The position numbers and the translations under genes were made by a program. This document shows, in pieces, positions 2,198 to 15,200 of a stretch of 64,000 nt of DNA. Under the pieces are notes generated by a model. The model was not told where the DNA came from. It ran no database searches and saw only the letters and a list, made by a program, of their open reading frames with translations. This DNA comes from Chromera velia. Its lineage: Eukaryota > Sar > Chromeraceae. Numbering within the stretch: the first letter of the stretch is position 1; the number at the start of each line of letters is the position of its first letter. Location of the stretch: positions 1 through 64,000 of the forward strand of contig JAHBMJ010005310.1 of the NCBI GenBank assembly GCA_018398765.1, read 5' to 3'.

Positions 2198-3424
2198 CAG
2201 AGAGAGAGAGAGGTACGGTTCTTCATGCCAATCGATGGCTGAAGAGCGTCGGGGAAAGCTGAATGAAGGAAAATGTCGAAGCATGTGGTTGTGAAAGCGG
2301 TCGGGAGGGTTTGAGTCGATGCAGGAACCGAAAGAGAGAGCAAAAAGAAAGGACCGGATTCGACGGTGGAGGCGAAGACGAAACGCGAACAGTGAACAAC
2401 AAAGATGGAAACGAAACACGATTATGCGATGACGGAACAACAGAGAAAATGACAAACGCGCACGAGACGACCGACAAAATACAAAAAGGACAAAAACGAG
2501 AAGAGTATCTTTCTCTTCTTTTTTGCTTCGTATACAGAGCCGCACTGACTTCTCTCTCTTCTTTCCAATGGCTGGTCACGGAGATGGGAAGAAAAACCTT
2601 CAAATGAACTAACTCGCTGTTGCGATTTGTTCCGGCCGTTGGTGTCGCACTTGTTGGATGAACACACTGAGGACAGAATCAAACCTGCCTCAAAAGGTTG
2701 GTCGCACAAACAGAATGCCAACAAGCGCGGATTGAGAAGAGAAAGGACGGAGAGTCGATCAGGAACTTGAAGGGAACTTCTTGACGTCATGCCGTCGGGA
2801 TGGAGCGGAGAAAAAGGTCAAAGGAACGAAAAAGCAAACACGCAAATGTTGAATAGATCCATCGTATTGTTTTCTTGTTTTTCTTCTTTCTCGCTTTCTT
2901 TTTTTCTTTCCTTCTTTCTTTCGTCTCAATGAGAAATCTGTACATACTCTCTTCCCCGACCCCTCACGAATTCACAAAACGGCCCCACTTTAGGCCAGTC
3001 GTGCAGTCCACATTCTTTACATTCAAAATTGCCCAGCAGGAAACCAAAGAAAGAAAGCGCGTAATCCCATTTTCAAGCGCCAGCAACACCCAATGCTCAC
3101 ACGTGAACGAAGCAAGATTCTACACAAGATGCATTTGAGATGATTGTCTCCCTTCCCCCCATGCATAACACTTCAGCCTTAAGACATTCATGGATTCCCT
3201 CTGAATTATACACAGCCTCTCCAAACGAATCTGCAGGCTCCATCTACTTCCCTATGGGCTCAACTCGAGCCCTCATGAGACTCGCTCGGTCACTCATCTG
3301 TCAACTCACACACGCCCCAACAAAGCTGAGTCAGAGGAGAAAGAATAAATCCATGAGCATGCATTCACGCATTCATTCCCCCCATTGGTACATGCATGCA
3401 CGATCCGGCTTGGTGCTCCATCCA
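1457..3424. other. Intergenic region downstream of the quinone reductase gene
   Basis: No exon with protein-like composition or matching splice phases was found. It holds a compound microsatellite at 2133-2212. The open frames over 2000-2600 are generated by that microsatellite and by purine-rich sequence. Confidence 0.45.
2133..2212. repeat. Compound (AC)n(AG)n microsatellite
   Basis: About 45 bp of AC dinucleotides followed by about 35 bp of AG on the plus strand, which is (CT)n(GT)n on the minus strand. It lies outside any gene I could define. Confidence 0.95.
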
Positions 3425-3622
3425 TCAGAAGAACATGTTCTTTTGCACTTTCTTTTTTCCCAATGTTTTTCTCTTGGCCGCTTCCCTGCCTGCCATTCGA
3501 CGCTCCTGACTGCCCTGTTCCCTCCAGAGACCGATGTCCTCAAGAGATGGTCCTGTTGAGAGACAGACAGGCGAGGGGTTGAGAGAAAGCAACAGAAGAC
3601 ATGCATGCACATATTCAACTCC

Positions 3623-3713
<91 letters not shown>

Positions 3714-5489
3714 CAAGGGACAGGAAGCAGACCCCCCACAACCAAACCCGCTCCAAGAGGGGCAAATCAAAGAATCACCCTACGACCGGGATGAATCGGG
3801 AAGAAAAAGCAAGAGATCAGCTTGCGAATACAGCAGGGTTGTGTGAGGCCCAGCCCAGAGAATGCGACGGAAATTTCCAATGAAGCAAGCAAAAGAAGAA
3901 AAAAGGAAAAAATGAAAACAAACAGACAAACAGACCGTTTGGGATGATTCCTGAGGGGTTCAGAGGAAAGAGGTTCCGGAAGTAAGACTGGATTGCGAGG
4001 TCGACTTCGAATGTTCTCCGCACTTCTTCCTTCTCCCAGAGATCCTGGGCCCACGCGAGAACGTGCGGGAAGTCAGACTTAATTTTCTTCCCCCCACACT
4101 TGAACAGAGACGAGTAGACACCATCGAACCTCACCACAGTAGGGAACAGCCACACGTCTAGAGCGGACGGCTGTTGGCTGCCCTTGCTGTTGCTGTTGGA
4201 GGTTCCTTTCGCACCTGCACCCCCCCACCCCTGCCTGGGGAGATACCTGAGGAAAGGTCAGACAGGTCCACCACGAGAAGAAAGTGAACAGTAGATCGGT
4301 GATAGAACAAAACGAAATTGCTGGAAGGAACACGAACACGAAGCCGTCGTTGTGTGATTGGACCTCCTTCGAAGGCCAGAATTAAGGTGTAGTTAGCGAG
4401 GAAAGAAAAAAGGCCGAAGGAAAATCATTCAAGAAAAAAAGACCAAAGGAGGGGACGACGAGAGAATCGTCCCATTCTTATTCAGAGAGCCTCCCAATGC
4501 ACCCTTGTCTGAAAAAAAAAGGACATACCCACAGACAGATACGCAGAGACAGCTGTACACGCCAGATCGCGTCGACATTTATTGTGACGAAGGGATTCAT
4601 TTGCTCTCCGTACAGAAACCAAAAAACGAATGATTCGCCATTTTTCTATCCCAACGCATCGCGGATGCAAGCACGCCCTCAAGAGATCTCTTCGTGTCTT
4701 CAGCCAGCTAAGCGCGGCAAGATGGGTCACAATCGTCATTGTTCCTTCAAAACTTGATTCACTCAGGAAGATGAGACCAAAAAACCCAATCCCAAACCCG
4801 GCAACAGGAACACACAAAACGTTGAGATTGAAAGACTCTGCAAGTGATTGAGGGCAGGAAAGGAGAGGACAGGAAATTGGTGAAAGGAGCAAAGACCGAC
4901 CTTGAAGAGGAAAGGAGACCATCGACCCTCGCGAGCCCTTCAAACACATCCGAGTGAGCACGCCTGTATGCTTCTTGAGAAGTCGAAAACCCACAACGGT
5001 ACACGCCGTTGTTGATCTGCACTCAGCACGAACAGACAGACGAACATTCATTCGAGGAGGGAATCAAAGGATCGAGAGACTTTCAGAAAAGGGGGCAGGA
5101 AATCATGACTGGTCCTGCCTCCAGTTGCCTCTAGCTAGCTCTTGAGTTTAGGATCGAATCCACGTGGACTCATCAACTCATTCACGTATAAGTACCATCA
5201 CCCTTTTGTTTTGAGCCCCCACACCCATGCATTCAATATTTTCCAAATTGACTTGAGAGTCCCTGCGGCGAGCGCCATCCAAAAATATTCCCCTCTCCTC
5301 TCCTCGCATGCACGGCTCCCCTTGCTGAATGAATGCCTCCACACTCCCTCCCATGCACCCATGCACTCATTCCCTTCTGCTGACCTTCGTGTAGATCTCC
5401 TCCAACCCCTCTGAGTCCACACCGCCAAAAAGAGACCCCCCACCCAGACGGTCAATCATCTTCACAATGTCCTCAGACTCGTTGCTTAC

Positions 5490-5525
<36 letters not shown>

Positions 5526-8500
5526 GCGCACAGAGAGTAAGGGAGTCACACAGAAAGGAACACCAGAGAGCGGAAGGGGCACTCGGTCTTAAAGAACGAA
5601 CACAAACAAACGAGTGGGTCATGAGGAGGTGAGAAGAGACCGTTGGGCCCTGCAGTCAGCCGCAGAAAAAGTCAGAAAGAAAGCCTCCCCCCCCTTCCCC
5701 CCAACCCAGCTGACTGACTGACAATAGTTCCTGTCTCCGAGTCCACCAGCAACGGAGCAGTGCACCTTCCTCTAAACCTCCCGCCGTCGCTGCACCTGTC
5801 GTACACCTGTCGGAGGTCCCTGGCCCCGAAAAGCGGGTCTGGAGACCCCTTCAAGTGCCCCAATTCCGCCTCCCCTTCCTCTCCGTCCCCAGCGGTGTCC
5901 GTGAAAGCCCAGCCGCCCCTGGACGCTCTCTCGGGATCATCGGTCATGTACGAGACAGTCACAGGGCTTTTGCCCTCACCTCTTCCCTTTCCCTCTCCGT
6001 CCACCTTGAGGCTCTCCGAGTACAGACCCTGAAGGGCCAGGCTTAACGCGACTCGGTGACACCAAGGACAGGCGTGACCTAAGTACCTGCACTCAACCAA
6101 CCCGCCAAGCAAGCAAAAAAGCAAGCACCGGGCAGACAGGCAGGCACATCGGCACATCACATCATGAGAAAAGAGGTGAGGCAGCATTGGGCGACACTAG
6201 TCGCTCGATCGAAGCAAACCCCCGCCAGTTGCACCCGTACCCGCGACAATGCCGCACGGCTGCTGACGAACACGCAGAAAAAGGAAAGACTGCCGGCGCG
6301 ACCGATGAAGAAGATGAAGTGAAAAGAAAAAACCAAAAAGACCACAGAGAAGCCACCGAGTTTGCCTGCCTGCACTACGGATTTTTCCTCATTTGTTTCG
6401 TCCTGCTCATTCATCGAAGAAGGAAGGACCCACAGATGAAAACCCCCCCTGGACAAGTCAGCGTCTCCTCGAATTCCATAGGAAGGCCGGATGTACTCTG
6501 CAGGAGAAATCAAAACACATCAGCCAACATGCACACGAATCAACAGAGATCCATGCATATCGACATACATTTACATGCATTCTCATCGAAGCTTTTCGAT
6601 AATCCACCAAGAAGGACGACATCGGCTTCAACGAAGAGACAGACGTCTCCTTATCTAAATTCATCAGATTGATTGAATTCATTTCTTTCTTCAACGGCAC
6701 AGACTCCAGAGACCCTCTATCCCCCTCTCAAAAGGAGGTAGATCACCTCCCTTCATCCTCTTTCTCGTTTCATCAATGATCAAGCGGATTTGAATGATTA
6801 AATTCCAAACAACTGACGGACAATGAGGTCAGTCAAACTGCAAGAAAGAAAAAGAAAAGCCCCCTTCCTGCTTCTACTTCTACCTCCTCCTGACTGACTG
6901 CCTCACCTCCTTCTGCCGACTGTGGTGCTAACTCCTTTAGCATTTGTTTCCACGCCTCACGCCACCCCGTCCGGGCAACGCTCACGACCGCCCCCTGCGG
7001 AACGACTGCGCCAGCCCACTCAAGAATCCTCAGACCACCTGCTTGAATTTACGCATTCTCATGCCAGAAGGAAGAAGGAAAGAAAACAAGGAAGAAGGAG
7101 AGAAGCAAAGGCGTACCAGACAGGTGAAGACAAAACAAAAAAAGGGAATTCAGTGCATACAACAACAAAAAAAGGGAATTCAGTGCATACAACAACAAAA
7201 AAAGGGAATTCAGTGCATACAACAACAAAAAAAGGGAATTCAGTGCATACAACAACTCGCACAGAGTAGCAAAGCACTCACCCTTCATTCATACGGCATA
7301 CCATCGACAATTGATGTAGAGAGAATTTCTATCTTGAAAGTTGACGCATCTCCACTGTCACACACGTATACCGCGCATTCATGCACACACACGTGAACGC
7401 AGGCACACACGCACAGAGAGAGAGGGAGAGGAGGGGGAGAAGACGCGGGAGAAGAACAGAGTATCAACGAACACCCATAGTAGCAGAGAAGGGCAGAGAC
7501 ATGAATGAGAAGAGAAAATTGCACTTTGAGATTCGACCAGAAGGCTAGCACAGGACAGAACAGGACTGTACGAAGGGAACTTGCACCACCTCATATAAGA
7601 AGAAATGCAACCCCACCCCATTCCCCAACGCTTTTTACTCCCGAAACTACACAACAGCGCTATCGCAGACAAAAAAGTTGGCTCTGTCTTTTTCTCACTC
7701 CTGCAGAAAGAAATTTGAGGCCCTGAATTCCATTCTAGTCCGCGCAGGAAGGAAGAGGGACAGAGATAAGAAGGAAGAGAGAAAAGAACTAGCGGGAATG
7801 AAGAAAGTGCAACTTACCTACCGTCTGTTTTCTGTCGAATCTTCTGGTCCTTCACCGATTGGCTTGCCCCCCCACCAGTTTGCATCCCGATACCCTCGCC
7901 GACTGGCTTCTGCTTCTTCTCCTCTGTGTCCTTCGGCTTCTGGCTCTCGTTGCTGCTGTCTGGTGTCCGTTTGTCTCCTACATCCACTGCCCCAATGAAC
8001 TCCCCCTCGTTTTTCTTGGCCTTCCGTGTGAGCAGCAGCTCAAACCCTCCTGCAGCACGAAAAAGCAGACGAAACAAACAGAGACGAAAACGATTCTGCA
8101 TTCACGCCTTCGCACTCACTCTGCATGCATGGGGTCGCTGGAGAGTGCCACGAAGATTTCGTTATGACTCTAAAATAAGAAGAGGTAGTCAGTGTGGCTT
8201 TTGTGTGCCTCGGTGAGGCCCCATGAAACTAATGCGGATCGATCTGGCGTCGATGCATGAGGTCTCCTTTCCCGCGAAAAAATGCAGACCAGAAAGGAGA
8301 AGCATGAGGGGAGGAAGAGCGTCCAGAGAGACAGGAAGAAATGCAATGAGTTCCCGGATGTTTTTGTTTTCGTATTTACTTTCCTTGTTCGCCCTGCTTG
8401 AATCATTGCTCTGTCCTTCCAACTGTTCTTCAGACAAAGACTGTGTCCCAAAAACAAAGAAAAGAAAAGTGCAGACATATATGCAGTGACAGGAGTCACG

Positions 8501-11500
8501 ACGGACGGACAAACAGACCGTCAGCCCTCGCTTTTGCTTTCTTGGCCGGGGATGCGGATGTCGGTGGGGGTGCGACGAAGGTCGTTTGGTCTTTTTGTTG
8601 TTCTTTTTGAACCATCCGTTTTTTTGACTCTGCCTGCTCTCTTGATTTTCTCTGTGCTTCTTCTTTTTCTTTGATCTGCCTGGCAGTTTTCTCTGCCTCT
8701 TCTTTGGCTTTTTTCGCTGCCTCTTCCTTTGCTTTTCTGTCTGCCTCTTGCTTTGCTTTTCTCTCTGCCTCTTGCTGTGCTTTTCTCTCTGCCTCTTCTT
8801 TTGCTTTTTTCTGCGCCTCTTCCCTCACTTTTCTCAGAGACTCTTCCTTTGCTTTTCTCTGCGCTTCTTGCTTTGCTTTTTTCGCTGCCTCTTCTTTTGC
8901 TTCTTTCTCCACGGCTTCTTTCACCTTTCTGAGCGCTTCCTCCTTCGTCATCTTCTCTGATTGGTCCTGCCCCTTTTCTTCTTCCCCCTGAACTGCTGCT
9001 TTCTCTGCCGCTTCCTGTTCTCCCTTTTGTACCTCTTCCGCCACCTTTCTCTCTGCCTGCTCTTCTGCTTTTCTCTCTGCGCCTTTCTTCGCGTCCTTCT
9101 TCACTGCAGGGGGTGATCTGGAGGTTCCAGAGAGCAGCTCAAAAAGCTCAAATCCACCTCCTGCATGCATGCATGCGTGCAGCAAGACCAAGGCAGTCGA
9201 TGAGTCAAGGACGCAACAAGGCAGGCAGGCAGGCAGACCGACAGGCACATTCACGCACCCACACACACACACACACACGCGCGCGCGAACGAAACGGAAA
9301 AGATGGTGACAGGGGCACCAGGAAGAGCGTGAATGGTTAAACCGGCAAAGAGATTCTCTCCGGGACACACATAGACGGACAAACACACACATCCTTACAC
9401 CCACAAGAGACGGCAAGCAAGTGGAGTTGAGAAAAAAGAGACACAGAGAGAGAGGGAAGGGCAGAAACAGACGTACGTACCCACCGCTCTTCTGCTGACG
9501 CTTCTTGCTCTTCTCTGGTTTGGGAGTCTGCGTTTGCGTTGTTTCGAGCGTCTCGGACTCCTTCGCGTTCTCAATCTCTTCTGCGGCGTCAACCTGCGTC
9601 GTCCTTTCCCCCCCCAGCGTATCTTTCTCCTCATCCCCTTGTTTTACTTCTTCCCCTCTTGCGGTCATCTTCCGGTCCCTGTAGTCCCCGATTGTCCCCG
9701 CTGTGGGTTCCTTCTCCTCCACGCCTTCTCCAGGCCCCACTGTCTTCGGGGTCTCTATGGCAAACATGTCGGAGAAGAAACCCCCTGAGGGAGACAAAAA
9801 AATAGGAGGGAAGAAAAGTCTGCGGCAGTCTTCAGATGCGACTTGCATAACGGCAGAGAGCATTCAGGTCTCTGCAGGAAAAGGAACTGAAATGGAAGAA
9901 AAATGAGGGGGTGCATGGGGTGCTTCTGTCTGACCTGAATTGCAAAGGTGGAAGGAGAAGGTGAGAACAGAAAACAAGAGAAAGAGAAGGGAAGACTTTT
10001 ACTTACAATCATTTTTCTTCTCTTTTACTCTTTGGTCTTTTTCCAGAGATGGTTCTACAGGCGGTTGCGTCGCTTTGGTTTCCACCCCGAGATCCTCTTG
10101 GTCTTTTTTTGGCGGCACTTTCTTCTTCTCCTCCTCACCCCCTTCATCCTTTGCTGCCCTGGATGCACCCATTCCCTCCCCCACCTGTCCCTCCCCGTCT
10201 CCCGTCTCTTCCTCTTTCTCCCCATCAGAAGAGATCCCCCCCCCCTTTTCCTTTCCCCTCTCCTTTTCCTTCTCTTTCCCCTCTTTCAACACGACACCCG
10301 ATGGGGCTTCAGTCTTCGTCCCCGCCTCCTTTCCCGACAACCAGTCGAGAAAGTCAAAACCCCCTGCGGACATGCACACACGCATGCAGGTCTCTGGTCA
10401 GATACACACAGCGAAGACTGACGCTGCTAACACACATGCAGGAAGCCTGTCTGATCTTCTCCCCGAAACAACTTTTCTTTTCAATTGACCTACAAAATTA
10501 CTAAGGTTCGAGCCCCCCCCTTTGCTCTTTCTTTCGGTCAGAGAAGGAGACGGAGACGGAAGACAAGGGGCGGGAGAAGATGAAAGAGAAGAAAATCACA
10601 TCCAGACCACTAACCTGTACTGTTGGGTTTGGGCTTTTCTCCAACGGCTTTGGCAGTCGGCGCGCTCTTTTTTTCTGTTCCTGAAAAGGCCATGCTGTTG
10701 GTCTCAACTTCCGTCTCTTTTGCTATAGAGCCCGTGTCCTGCTTGTCCTCCTCTACGCCTGCGCCTTCTGTAAGCGAAGTTATTTCCTTTACCTCAACCG
10801 CCGTTTCATTTCCAGAAGAACTCTTCTGATTTGTCTTTGCGGCCCTCTCTTCTTCTTCTTCTTCTTGTGATAATGAAATCCTTTTGTCTTCTTCTGCTTC
10901 TGCTTGTGCGGGAGGACGCGTGGCGGTCTTCTTTTCGGCTGCAGGGGGTACGTTCTTCTCCTTGCCAGACAACCACTCCATGAAATTGAATTCAAAAGGC
11001 CCTGCAAGAGGAAGAAGAAGCATTGGGAAGAGATGGACGGGAATCGAGAAAAGAAAAATTGGGGAGGGAGGGAGGGAGGGAGGGAAGGAATGAAGAAAGA
11101 AGGAAAGAAGAATCAAAGGAACAAAGAAATAAGAAAAGAAAGAGAGAACGAAGGAAGGAGAGATCGAAGGAAAGAAGAACAATACGAAAGGAGGGCGGAA
11201 GTAGAGAAGGAGACAAAGAAGCAGAGCAGAAAGAAAGAAAGGATGGAAGGAGGGAGGGAGAGAAGAATGGAGGGGGGGGAGAAAGAAAGAAGGCAGACCA
11301 ATACAAGTGAGAAAGCACATCACGAACTGAATTCATTCCAGTGTGTCTAGCAGACAGAGAAAATGTGGGAGCCCATCTCCGTCTCCCTTCATATGCAGCT
11401 TCCATGCAAATCAGACACAACAGAAGAGAGAATGAGCACATACCATTGCCTTTGGGCTCTGGCTTTTTGTGTGGAACGGAGCTTGCACTAACATTCCCCG

Positions 11501-11768
11501 CCGAAGAAGAAGCGGTCTCTTCCACCATCGTCTCCTCGATCGCCGTCTCCTCTTCGATCAAGGGCGTCTCTTCTCCAGGTACGACGGCATCCTCGGAGAC
11601 TATCTCTTTCTCGACCACGACTGCTCCCTTTTCTACTCGGAGGACCGCAGCTCTCCCCCGTCGGCCCGCCAGTGCGTGCGTCGGGGGCAATCGAGTGAAG
11701 CTGCTCGCGGGCCAGACGAGCAAGACAGCGAAAAGGACGACAAAGAGCATCGAGAGACAATACCGCAT
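3425..11768 (-). CDS. Plastid-targeted glutathionyl-hydroquinone reductase with N-terminal repeats
   Basis: Predicted Xi-class GST that reduces glutathionyl-hydroquinones; about 1152 aa. Exons in order: 11444-11768, 10615-11001, 10007-10363, 9485-9784, 8519-9160, 7822-8049, 6907-7038, 6434-6497, 5723-6086, 5385-5489, 4901-5016, 3936-4246, 3425-3552; all junction phases agree. Residues 1-24 form a signal peptide ending Trp-Pro-Ala-Ser-Ser-Phe, then a basic transit-like stretch. Exons 2-7 each begin with a GGFxFxxWLSGKE-like motif followed by charged low complexity. The enzyme domain starts at LAPQ-EYIRPSYG, with catalytic Cys818 in ACPWCHR, then GTIVSNESEDIVKMI, INNGVYRCGF, the all-helical part (LFPTVVRFD, FKCGG) and NPSGIIPNGP near the end. 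ATG at 11768 was chosen because the next upstream in-frame triplet is TTG. The exon 5 and 12 donors (GTCTGT) are weak. The domain call is firm; plastid location is inference; exact ends of the low-complexity exons are less sure. Confidence 0.85.
3626..3713. repeat. Compound microsatellite in the last intron of the quinone reductase gene
   Basis: Plus-strand (AC)n(AG)n, so the sense strand of the minus gene reads (CT)n(GT)n. It lies inside intron 12 (3553-3935), upstream of the terminal-exon acceptor. Confidence 0.95.
7137..7256. repeat. Minisatellite, four copies of a 30-bp unit
   Basis: Four essentially identical 30-bp units containing GGGAATTCAGTGCATAC and A-rich spacers, inside intron 6 (7039-7821) of the quinone reductase gene. 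The units are adjacent with no spacers, so this is an ordinary tandem repeat. Confidence 0.97.
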
Positions 11769-12201
11769 CCACGGGGTGTGCAAGAGAGGATCCAGACGAG
11801 CTAGCTCACCAAATCTGCTGCCAGCTGTCCCTTAACTTTCTTTGACCGCGCCGATCTCTTCGAACGTAGATCTGGGGACGTCTGTCTCTTTGGCTGCATG
11901 AGTGGGGCGGCGCGGCGCCCGCGGGGCCGGCCATATATATGCAGGATTATGCAGGTCCAATCCTCGCGAGCGCGCGCCACATGCACATGCAGATGCTGTG
12001 CTGCTTGCATGTCATGATGATCTGCAAAGAGAGCGATCATCTGGAACACTTTTGCATCATTGCACCGCCTGGACACCCGTCTCAGTGCTTCCCTGCAAAG
12101 AACACTCTTCGTTACGACGCAGCAGACGCGCTCACCGACTCAGTTTTCATCTCTTGCTGTCAGGTGCCGCTGAAGTAGGCCGAGTGACTCCGGATTTCAA
12201 G
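11769..12201. promoter_or_regulatory. Shared divergent promoter region
   Basis: These 433 bp separate the start codons of the quinone reductase (minus) and the amino acid transporter (plus), so both promoters and 5' UTRs must lie here unless untranslated exons exist. It contains a GC-rich block near 11905-11935 next to TATATAT at 11934-11940. No specific factor site can be proven. Confidence 0.5.
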
Positions 12202-15200
12202 ATGTCGGACTCTTTGTTGAAGCCAGAAACCCCTCTGGGCGTCGATCCAGAAGCCCTCATCCCAGCGGTGGACGAGGTCAGACCAGAGGCGGACAGAGTC
12301 TGGCTGGAGTCGCCTGCAGGAGATATGATTCGGGATGTGGTCAGAGCCATCGATGTATCGACTCAGCAGAATCCGGAGGGAGCCTCCACCACTGAGAACA
12401 GCGTATTCCCTAGGAGGAGCAACTCCTTAACTCTCACACGACCAGGAATGGTGGACGAAACCACCGCGCTTCAGGCCACAGACATTGCGCAGGTCAGTCA
12501 TTTTGGTTGGTGCCGTCTCTGTATGCGCATGTCTGTGCGGGTGCCCGTCTCTGTATGCGCGTTTGTGCAGATGAGGCCCTACCCTTTCTTGCAAACCGCT
12601 TCGCCTTCCTGCCGCTCTTGCGTCGTGCTCATTTTTGACGCACCCCCTTACTTGTGTGCGTGGGTGGATCAACTAAGCCGTCTCCTTTCCTCTCCCGTCG
12701 CTCTTCTCCGCTCTGTATTTCCCCTCTCCCCTCCCGCCTGTCTGACACTTGTAGCCTGGAGGATTCAGACGTCACCATCTATACGGAACAGAGGTAGTCG
12801 GGGTCCTGAGACCAGGGGGGGGGGGAGAGACGGCTACAGCGGATCCCTCCAGCTCCTCAGCAGAGGGGTCACCCGCCACCACGACGGCTGGATTCGTGGA
12901 CCTTTTCGGTGACCCGTTCTTCTACACACGGTGGGGGNNNNNNNNGGGGGATCCGGTGCATGTCGGGGCATGCATTTATTTTTATACAGATTTCTTTGTC
13001 ATACAGATGAAAGTAAATGGATGACCCCTTCTTCGACACGCGGTGGGTGGGTGACTCGGTGTCGGGGGTGTGACTGGTCTGACTGGCTCACTCACTCACT
13101 CACTTTCACTCCGCCTGTCACAGCAGCTCGATCCTTCATTATTTCCACATCAGTACCCATTCATTTCGTCCGTTCACATATGGTGTGTACACACGTCTCG
13201 TGTCCTTGTCTTTCTCCACAGATCGTCTTTCTGTCTTTCTTTCTTTCTTTCTTCTGACGTCCAATCGCTTGTTTCTTCTACTCCATTTCAAGCCGTTCTC
13301 TCGAGCGTCTGTTCTTTTCGTCTTTTCTAGTCGATCAGCAGCTACAGTCCCTCCCGCCTTCCGGGCATCCCTGCCATCTGTCGACGTGTGTTCTGTCAAT
13401 GGATCGAGATCAAACGCAGTTTTCGCTTCCTTTCTGCATCCTGCAGAATGATGCTGTACGATGAGGAGGACACGAAAGATTCAGATTACGTGGCCGAGTT
13501 CGCGACCAGAAGGTTGGAGGTCTCCCGGGCTCTCCGCAACGCCCACCAAGAACTTCTACGGGCCCATCCGGAAAGAAGGAAAAGAGCCAACGTGACACAC
13601 ACGATTTTGTCCATCATGAAGTCCTTCATCGGCGCTGCATTTCTTTTCCTCCCTTCAGCTTTCAGAGACGGCGGAATGCTTTTCTCGAACGTGATCATGA
13701 CTCTCAGGTGCGTTGTGTTGCATGCTTTCTTTCTGCTTCCACCTTCTATGTCGGTGTCTCCTTCTCTGTCTGTGCGACTCCAAGAATGAAAAATGCCAGG
13801 CGGCTTTACAAACACAGACTGACTGACTGACTGCCCATCGTCTGTGCGGAGTTGACGGCCAACTCCTTTAAAAGACTGTGTGCAAAACTGTCTTTCCTTG
13901 CAAGTACCTCACGCATGCATGCAGACTGCAAGCACTGTCGCGCCGCTCTATTCATATATCTCTCAGTCAGCCAGAAGGATAATGGACAGAGGAACTCGCG
14001 GAATGGGGATCCGAGTCCATCCAGTTGTGTGCGTGTCTACGCGATTCATTGCCTGCCTGCATGCAGGACATTAGGTATGTGAAGGTGCCCCCGTGTGTGA
14101 GACAGGGTGCGTTTGTGCATTCGTTCGTGCAACAAGAAATATTCGTTGGTGGCGATGTGTCTGCAGTCTTGTGATTAACGTGATTGGCATCTTTCGGCTG
14201 GTCGACATCACCCGGATAGGCCGGGAGAGCTACGGAGACATTGCAGAAGACGCTATGGGTTGGAGGGGACGCGCGCTGGTAAGTGAGTATGCTGCGCTGC
14301 TACTCTGCTACTGGCTTGCGTGGTTTGCGGCGTTTGGTTGCTTACTCGCTTGCTCGCTTGCTTGCTTGCTTGCTTGGTTTGTTGATTCAAGTCGAAAGGG
14401 GTGCAACACCACAAGTGAAACCGGACAAGCGAGCGTGAAGAAGGAGGGGACGACAAAGAGATCCCCCCAAAACAATCAGCCGATGTTTAAGGGAAGAAAA
14501 TGAACAGAGCAGGAAAGGAATGAGAGCATTTTTACCTGAAGGAAGGAAAGTGTACAGGGGGAGAGGAAAGGTGAGGAGGGGAGAGAGCAGACGACGAAGG
14601 CTTAGATTGGCCCCCTTTTTAGCTCCCACGAATTTGCTTTTCCCTCCCTCCCCCGCCAAATTGACGCATCTCAGAAAATGCTTGCACGAAGAGACTGTCG
14701 ATGTTCAAAATGCCTTTGTGCCTTTATTGTGGATGGCCTCCCCCTCCCTCAGTCGGGTGCAAAATCAAAAAGGTCCCTCTTTGCTGATGTGTGTACATGC
14801 AGGTGAACTTCAGCATCTGGTTATCCCAGATTGCGTTCTTCGCTGTCTTTCTGATCTTTGCTGCCACGAACACAGCCGACCTTCTCGAGTCTGTTGCTGG
14901 GTGCTCAATCCGGGTCTATCCCTCTCATGTCCTCTTCGCAATGGTCCCATTTCAGGTGAGATCCTTTGTTTTCTGTTTTCCTTCCAGAGGCATACGCACT
15001 CCAGTTATGTGTCTTTCTGAGAGACTGTCCCAGGCCTCCTCTGCTTCTCTCTTTCATTTGGGTTTCTGGCCCCTTTGTCTGCCTCGTATTGTTTGTGCTG
15101 CCTCTCCTAGCTCGGCATGTTGCAAAAGAAACGTCGCCCGCTCATTCTTTTTGCCGGTCTGTTTGTCCTGCTTTCTTTCTGGAATCTTCTCTAAGTTTCT

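Follow-up and report, generated by a model that had tools for sequence, protein, structure and literature searches.

Glutathionyl-hydroquinone reductases, the Xi class of the glutathione S-transferases (GSTs), are dimeric enzymes. Passages of the literature describe their substrates as hydrophobic glutathionyl-hydroquinones and term their CPWA active site strictly conserved in the class (PMC5063366), and ascribe one isoform with CPWC to most algae (PMC4138524). In Chromera velia, a glutathionyl-hydroquinone reductase transcript has been measured, in a passage that does not specify the gene (PMC6920818). Here we analyse a gene of this family encoded on the minus strand of C. velia contig JAHBMJ010005310.1 (NCBI GenBank assembly GCA_018398765.1), of which positions 1 to 64,000 of the forward strand constitute the window to which the coordinates of the gene refer. 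The gene, modelled with 13 exons (3425..11768), joins a known enzyme family to a new architecture, an N-terminal extension in which several exons open with the same short aromatic motif. Among the titles and abstract openings listed in literature searches on glutathionyl-hydroquinone reductases or exon duplication, none described a reductase with such an extension.

Tails of related design are known from other proteins. Titin PEVK and elastin grew by the reiteration of symmetric phase 1-1 exons, the exon being the repeat unit and the product disordered, and single α-helix (ER/K) stalks are known lone charged helices. We propose that the gene is nuclear and encodes a plastid glutathionyl-hydroquinone reductase whose sticker-and-spacer tail, derived from reiterated phase 1-1 exons, tethers the enzyme, an explanation to which we give an even chance of being right. 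It starts from features that are read directly in the DNA, namely the frame, the intron phases, the motif in exons 2, 3, 5 and 7, the confinement of aromatic residues to exon starts and the duplication of a segment elsewhere in the genome.

Results

The exon borders of the reductase gene were placed by GT/AG dinucleotides and continuity of the frame. Once spliced, the gene comprises 3459 nt and forms a single closed frame of 1152 residues plus a stop, with GT/AG at 12 of 12 introns. Introns 1–7 are in phase 1 throughout (assuming equal phases, the chance of seven consecutive phase-1 introns is 4.6e-4), introns 8–12 are in phases 2, 0, 0, 2 and 1, and all six of exons 2–7 are symmetric (phase 1-1). 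An earlier, sequence-only reading had given the sizes of exons 2–7 as 387, 357, 300, 642, 228 and 132 nt, all bounded by phase-1 introns, and the spliced model confirms them. Its extension of ~750 residues agrees with the 746 residues that precede exon 7, which are more precisely a 638-residue extension (exons 2–6) behind the 108-residue exon 1. Since purine-rich DNA may stay open by chance (the G+C content of the window is ~48%), we counted stops over exons 2–6, summed by exon, and found none in the coding frame and 17 in each of the two remaining sense frames. On the antisense strand, too, several frames are open (3/3 in exon 3, 2/3 in exon 4 and 2/3 in exon 6), so the openness of the frame is by itself weak coding evidence, and codon-usage scoring could not separate the coding frame from the other frames.

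A different way to read this locus is as two genes fused in the model, exons 1–6 being a separate charged protein that would end immediately past the exon-6 donor, and the enzyme having its own unseen first exon. The unspliced frame past exon 6 indeed reads DGR and then a stop, and the low-complexity and enzyme parts are sharply different. However, phase 1 runs unbroken via intron 6 into exon 7, exon 7 shares its motif with exons 2, 3 and 5, and the open frame around it (6833-7048) has no ATG ahead of the motif; we regard two genes as unlikely.

Exon 1 (11444..11768) encodes a hydrophobic leader followed by SSF-TRLPP and an acidic tail, and looks like a bipartite plastid leader, the type that chromerid plastid proteins use according to a passage of PMC6668581. 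Because exon 1 already has this resemblance, a second targeting role for the tail is unnecessary, and the earlier idea that the extension serves as a plastid assembly signal is not required.

Exons 8–13 (6497-6434, 6086-5723, 5489-5385, 5016-4901, 4246-3936 and 3552-3425) encode the GST-fold enzyme domain. Two Pfam families score narrowly over their cut-offs in this domain (GST_N_2, 27.3 bits against 25; GST_C_2, 25.0 against 24.9), an NCBIfam scan of it returned no family, and among solved structures the closest belong to glutathionyl-hydroquinone reductases and their kin, headed by E. coli YqjG (3r3e, E 7.6e-32). By sequence, the enzyme is a glutathionyl-hydroquinone reductase of the Xi class with the two domains of a GST. 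In a seven-row alignment the catalytic Cys is invariant, as are 46 other columns; the Tyr and glutathione-site residues Y228, Y305, Y349, N190, S192 and W125 of the domain are the same in 7/7 rows, the query among them, and the three tyrosines would, judging from their position, be the published Tyr triad. The active site reads CPWC, the Cys and the CPW being kept and the fourth residue being Cys, not Ala.

To place the enzyme we compared it with bacterial, archaeal and cyanobacterial relatives and with paralogues from its own genome; a search of viral contigs found no relative. The tree has 31 rows, drawn from 26 of the best 80 genome loci, four of five plasmid loci and two own-genome rows, and leaves out L124 (which has a stop in frame) and two of the 14 cyanobacterial loci whose N-terminal segment is of the same type as that of the window enzyme. 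The window enzyme groups with 12 of the 12 included cyanobacterial rows that have an N-terminal segment of the form SLPP...W..MW..MMS.LAP (support 98/98). At least two further family members are present in the genome, a single-exon paralogue on contig C3872 and another, with several exons, on C750, the latter known from open frames alone. The C3872 paralogue falls outside the cyanobacterial-type group, and both own-genome rows are long-branched. That paralogue (2683-4047 of locus L067), whose branch is very long, likewise reads CPWC. Ninth among otherwise cyanobacterial best matches stands a locus (L097) on a contig titled Gracilibacteria, a placement that is perhaps a binning error. The extension is absent from five plasmid-borne bacterial and archaeal proteins, from 18 of the best 80 genome loci (judged by their frame starts) and from the C3872 paralogue; the statement that ordinary family members lack it therefore holds for these relatives.

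Each exon of the extension, and exon 7 after it, had been described as opening with a variant of one motif. Exon 2 (10615..11001, 129 residues) begins with GPFEFNFMEWLSGKE (11001-10958), exon 3 (10007..10363, 119 residues) with GGFDFLDWLSGKE (10363-10326), exon 4 (9485..9784, 100 residues) with WGFFSDMFAIETPKT, exon 5 (8519..9160, 214 residues) with GGGFELFELLSGTSR (motif GGGFELFELLSG at 9160-9126), exon 6 (7822..8049, 76 residues) with GGFELLLTRKAKKNE and exon 7 (6907..7038, 44 residues) with GGLRILEWAGAVVPQ. After a leading Gly, which the AG|G splice consensus partly imposes on phase-1 exons, good copies read approximately [FL]-x-[FIL]-[FLM]-[DE]-[WL]-[LA]-(S)-G. We compared the six 16-residue starts with 5000 shuffles in which residues 1 and 2 were held fixed: the summed likeness of the set was never reached (it lay above 5000 of 5000), and it also exceeded 5000 draws of 16-mers from the same exons. 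Pair by pair (values give the share of the 5000 shuffles that scored at least as high, uncorrected for the 15 pairs), the strongest likenesses were between exons 2 and 3 (0), 3 and 5 (0.0004), 3 and 7 (0.003), 2 and 5 (0.012) and 2 and 7 (0.026), followed by 5 and 6 (0.032), 5 and 7 (0.045), 3 and 6 (0.063) and 6 and 7 (0.065); exons 2 and 6 (0.36) and exon 4 with any other start (0.21-0.69) were weak. On this statistic exons 2, 3, 5 and 7 clearly share the motif, exon 6, with its start GGFELLL, is borderline, and exon 4, which has an aromatic start (WGFFSDMFAI), is not supported; the description is thus upheld for exons 2, 3, 5 and 7 and fails for exon 4.

Aromatic residues are concentrated in the same places: exons 2–6 have 18 of them, and 14 occupy residues 1–10 of their exon, a portion that amounts to 50 of the 638 residues (hypergeometric 1e-13). 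Among the 11 motif codons of exons 2 and 3, four are identical, four synonymous and three non-synonymous, and the differences at codon positions 1/2/3 number 2/0/7, a third-position bias that suggests constraint at the protein level. The spacers behind the motifs have a fraction of charged residues of 0.45 and a net charge of -0.02, fall in the disordered region of the charge-hydropathy plot and, in the 10 spacer pairs, show no likeness beyond composition (lowest, 33/200 shuffles). These figures bear on the main rival to a tether, which holds that the tail is tolerated baggage: exon duplication and purine-repeat slippage would have lengthened an unconstrained linker, and the likeness of the motifs would be functionless ancestry. 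The absence of mutual likeness among the spacers fits such a history, as do exons 4 and 6, where the motif has decayed or was never present. It sits poorly with the third-position bias between exons 2 and 3, with the motifs of exons 2, 3, 5 and 7 having stayed alike while their spacers diverged, and with just four of the 18 aromatics lying beyond residue 10 of their exon.

Exon 7 had been taken to carry the last copy of the motif as the native start of the enzyme domain. Ten of 14 cyanobacterial homologues of the same type align only from exon-7 residue 10-13 onward, with GKSLPP-like residues facing its AGAVVPQG, which speaks against that view. The remaining four align earlier, from residue 2 (L090 and L099), 3 (L103) or 5 (L110); L090 and L099 both have LRW there, ahead of the first ATG of the frame as read, and GGLRILEW has no conserved counterpart among the 14 loci. 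Because most cyanobacterial relatives begin after the motif, it was probably added on and is not the native enzyme start; exon 7 would then consist of the motif GGLRILEWAG (7038-7010) and a conserved cyanobacterial-type segment, AVVPQG...ELAPQS. For the cyanobacterial type, AlphaFold2 predicts a helix over residues 6-28 within the N-terminal segment, with a predicted local distance difference test (pLDDT) score of 65-67, followed by a mostly confident fold.

The extension had also been suggested to be a stalk, and exon 5 is the one place where that suggestion finds a counterpart. Single-sequence AlphaFold2 predicts a lone helix over exon-5 residues 67-193 (8580..8960), mostly at pLDDT >90, which would be ~19 nm long (127 residues x 1.5 Å); its salt-bridge score, from residues of opposite charge at i+3/i+4, is 47, where shuffled sequences give 0.6 ± 8.9. 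The other spacers do not bear the proposal out. Under part of the helix lies a 24-nt array (8690-8909) encoding KAKEEAER-like units, of the slippage type that a baggage history invokes. Elsewhere in the genome, a dense array at C3892:45618-48519 is 65-74% similar to exon-5 DNA and probably encodes a large charged-helix protein.

Duplication of part of the extension can be followed on contig C1838. The exon-2 DNA matches C1838:1659-1988 at 88%, and the copied stretch as a whole (10313..10947, at C1838:1363-1988) runs from window position 10947 to 10313 across the exon-2 spacer (324 aligned positions, 25 differences), the whole of intron 2 (247, 15) and the start of exon 3 (48, 9), with an identity, gaps aside, of 92.3% in the spacer and 93.9% in the intron. 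Donor, acceptor and phase are retained, and the indels measure 6 and 9 nt in exon 2 and 3 and 1 nt in the exon-3 start. The counterpart of exon 3 has the reading GGVDFLVRLGQEEGEE, and a phase-1 donor is present at which it can end. A 45-bp repeat, which in the same frame reads like VRLGQEEEEEEEEGS, adjoins the copy on both sides (3.9 copies by TRF on one, ~1.5 by eye on the other; the tandem part lies at 1993-2167 of locus L173 on C1838); this array is possibly sticker-derived and part of another gene, or a dead copy. As the duplication breaks inside motif DNA, the pattern suggests that motif-like repeats may be where recombination happens. No match to the enzyme on C1838, of which 9.9 of 25.5 kb were read, stands among the listed family matches.

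At the level of DNA, exon-bounded duplication is thus a process that occurs in this genome. The earlier picture of one exon duplicated repeatedly is borne out by the uniform phase 1-1, the shared starts of four (perhaps five) of the six exons and the C1838 copy, and is not borne out as to its source, a native first enzyme exon. Exon 2 has two further matches of ~60 bp, on contigs C1105 and C1533. DNA searches with window positions 7290-10312 and 10940-11780 returned 63 and 77 matches, and the query coordinates of those that are not self-matches place them in the exon-5 repeat, the purine run of intron 1 or short repeats.

We then ran four DNA patterns over the 177.8-Mb assembly, with reversed patterns as the control. 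The pattern for WLSGKE gave 17 matches (36 reversed); in the contexts read (17/17), an aromatic run follows an acceptor only in the two of this gene. F-x-[FL]-x-[DE]-[WL]-L, in which TTG is the sole Leu codon allowed at the W position, so that exon 5 is missed, gave an excess, with 38 matches against 15 reversed; two belong to this gene, and among the 32 of 36 others read none opens an exon with GG. An acceptor followed by GGF[DE][FL][FL] occurred eight times against three reversed, and of these matches (8/8 read) only exons 3 and 6 lead into a long charged frame. An acceptor followed by GG[FL]x(FILV)[FL][DE]W occurred three times against one reversed (3/3 read), in exons 3 and 7 and on contig C33, where a stop follows soon after. 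Outside exon starts, a run VSFDFFEWL (VSFDFFEWLRLRK) occurs in a charged frame of locus L019 (about 1410-1680), and locus L041 (about 1457-1560) has a run VKGFELFELLSAEPER in what is possibly a last exon, where VKGFELFELLSAEPERALKLKG is followed by a stop; nine residues of the latter run, near this stop, are as in exon 5.

Within the gene, a 30-bp unit that includes GAATTCAGTGCAT is repeated almost perfectly, 4.3 times, in intron 6 (7130-7256). A divergent neighbour on the plus strand (12202-14956) encodes an amino-acid transporter, whose exon pieces, once joined, match Pfam Aa_trans at 7e-18, and starts ~430 bp from the reductase start codon. A search of the genome for the Rubisco family returned no match.

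Discussion

Taken together, these data can be accommodated by a model in which the reiteration of symmetric phase 1-1 exons would have grown the N-terminal tail, each good copy bringing an aromatic motif, the sticker, and behind it a disordered, charge-balanced spacer, one of which (exon 5) would hold the predicted helix as a stalk. Exon 1 would direct the protein to the plastid and the tail would stay on the mature enzyme, where several motifs per chain, doubled by the dimer, may provide multivalent binding to the tail itself or to one partner complex. Such tethering would concentrate quinone repair at the assembly or partner complex. The earlier suggestion that the extension may be a partner-binding array is plausible.

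Several results weigh against this model. The exon-4 start has no significant likeness to the motif in the shuffle test and that of exon 6 is borderline. In the matches read, the four DNA patterns found no other motif-opened exon leading into a long charged frame, so that neither a partner nor a shared address is apparent. At two further loci, L019 and L041, motif-like runs lie inside apparent coding frames, which shows that runs of this kind are not unique to the gene; we treat them as leads, not as family evidence, and a recheck left our estimates for the tether and for baggage unchanged. In the C1838 copy, the exon-2 spacer has a non-synonymous rate (dN) of 0.094 and a synonymous rate (dS) of 0.042 (2 synonymous and 21 non-synonymous changes in 107 codons), and its identity resembles that of the intron, with no sign of constraint on the spacer; the copy may be dead. 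This last result is also a point for tolerated baggage, which we consider a possible explanation, though not a likely one. Finally, the hydrophobic moment is low in the exon-2 (0.12) and exon-3 (0.18) motifs, which are therefore not clear amphipathic helices. The same low moment, and a motif core broken by Asp or Glu, count against a further alternative, in which the aromatic motifs would insert into a membrane, that of the thylakoid or the envelope, and so keep the enzyme near lipid-soluble quinones; every good motif does have a hydrophobic F/W/L core, and the family substrates, in the passage of PMC5063366, are hydrophobic, and even so we find membrane insertion rather improbable.

The tail could also be a scaffold of its own making, a condensate or polymer in which at least four motifs per chain, doubled by dimerisation, would cross-link the quinone-repair enzyme in the plastid; we think this doubtful. 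If it were true, sticker-and-spacer chemistry would have been put straight onto a redox enzyme and not onto a dedicated linker protein. Provided that the transcript holds, the gene would illustrate cleanly how tails of the sticker-and-spacer kind can originate, the motif being kept while the spacers drift, with the C1838 segment showing such duplication directly; it would also allow the tethering or clustering of an ordinary detoxifying enzyme to be tested in a complex plastid.

Among known systems, the window enzyme has the same enzyme domain as the glutathionyl-hydroquinone reductases E. coli YqjG, yeast ECM4 and poplar GHR1, including the catalytic Cys, the conserved Tyr and further columns, and shares its N-terminal segment with the cyanobacterial enzymes. 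In contrast, it has 1152 residues against a Xi-class average of 330 (in a passage of PMC4138524), reads CPWC in place of CPWA, and carries a motif-and-spacer extension that the relatives examined lack. The layout of this extension recalls the Rubisco scaffolds EPYC1 and PYCO1, in which a few short aromatic stickers are unevenly spaced in a mostly disordered charged chain (six uneven, Trp-dependent stickers in PYCO1, in a passage of PMC10288592); here the exon starts lie 76-214 residues apart. By analogy the tail might be a Rubisco or pyrenoid linker. However, it is fused to an oxidoreductase, its motif is unrelated and not KWSPR-like, and C. velia reportedly lacks the large pyrenoid of V. brassicaformis (a passage of PMC6379472), direct evidence being lacking according to a passage of PMC3468483; such a linker is very improbable.

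Exon 5 resembles ER/K stalks in its KAKEEAER repeat, in its i,i+4 opposite charges and in the predicted 127-residue lone helix, and differs in its 8-residue, alanine-rich unit and in being one spacer of five. Compared with titin PEVK and elastin, the window tail keeps the exon starts only, has unrelated spacers and belongs to an alga, not an animal; what it has in common with them is that the exon is the repeat unit, that the phase is uniformly 1, and that the product is, by prediction, disordered.

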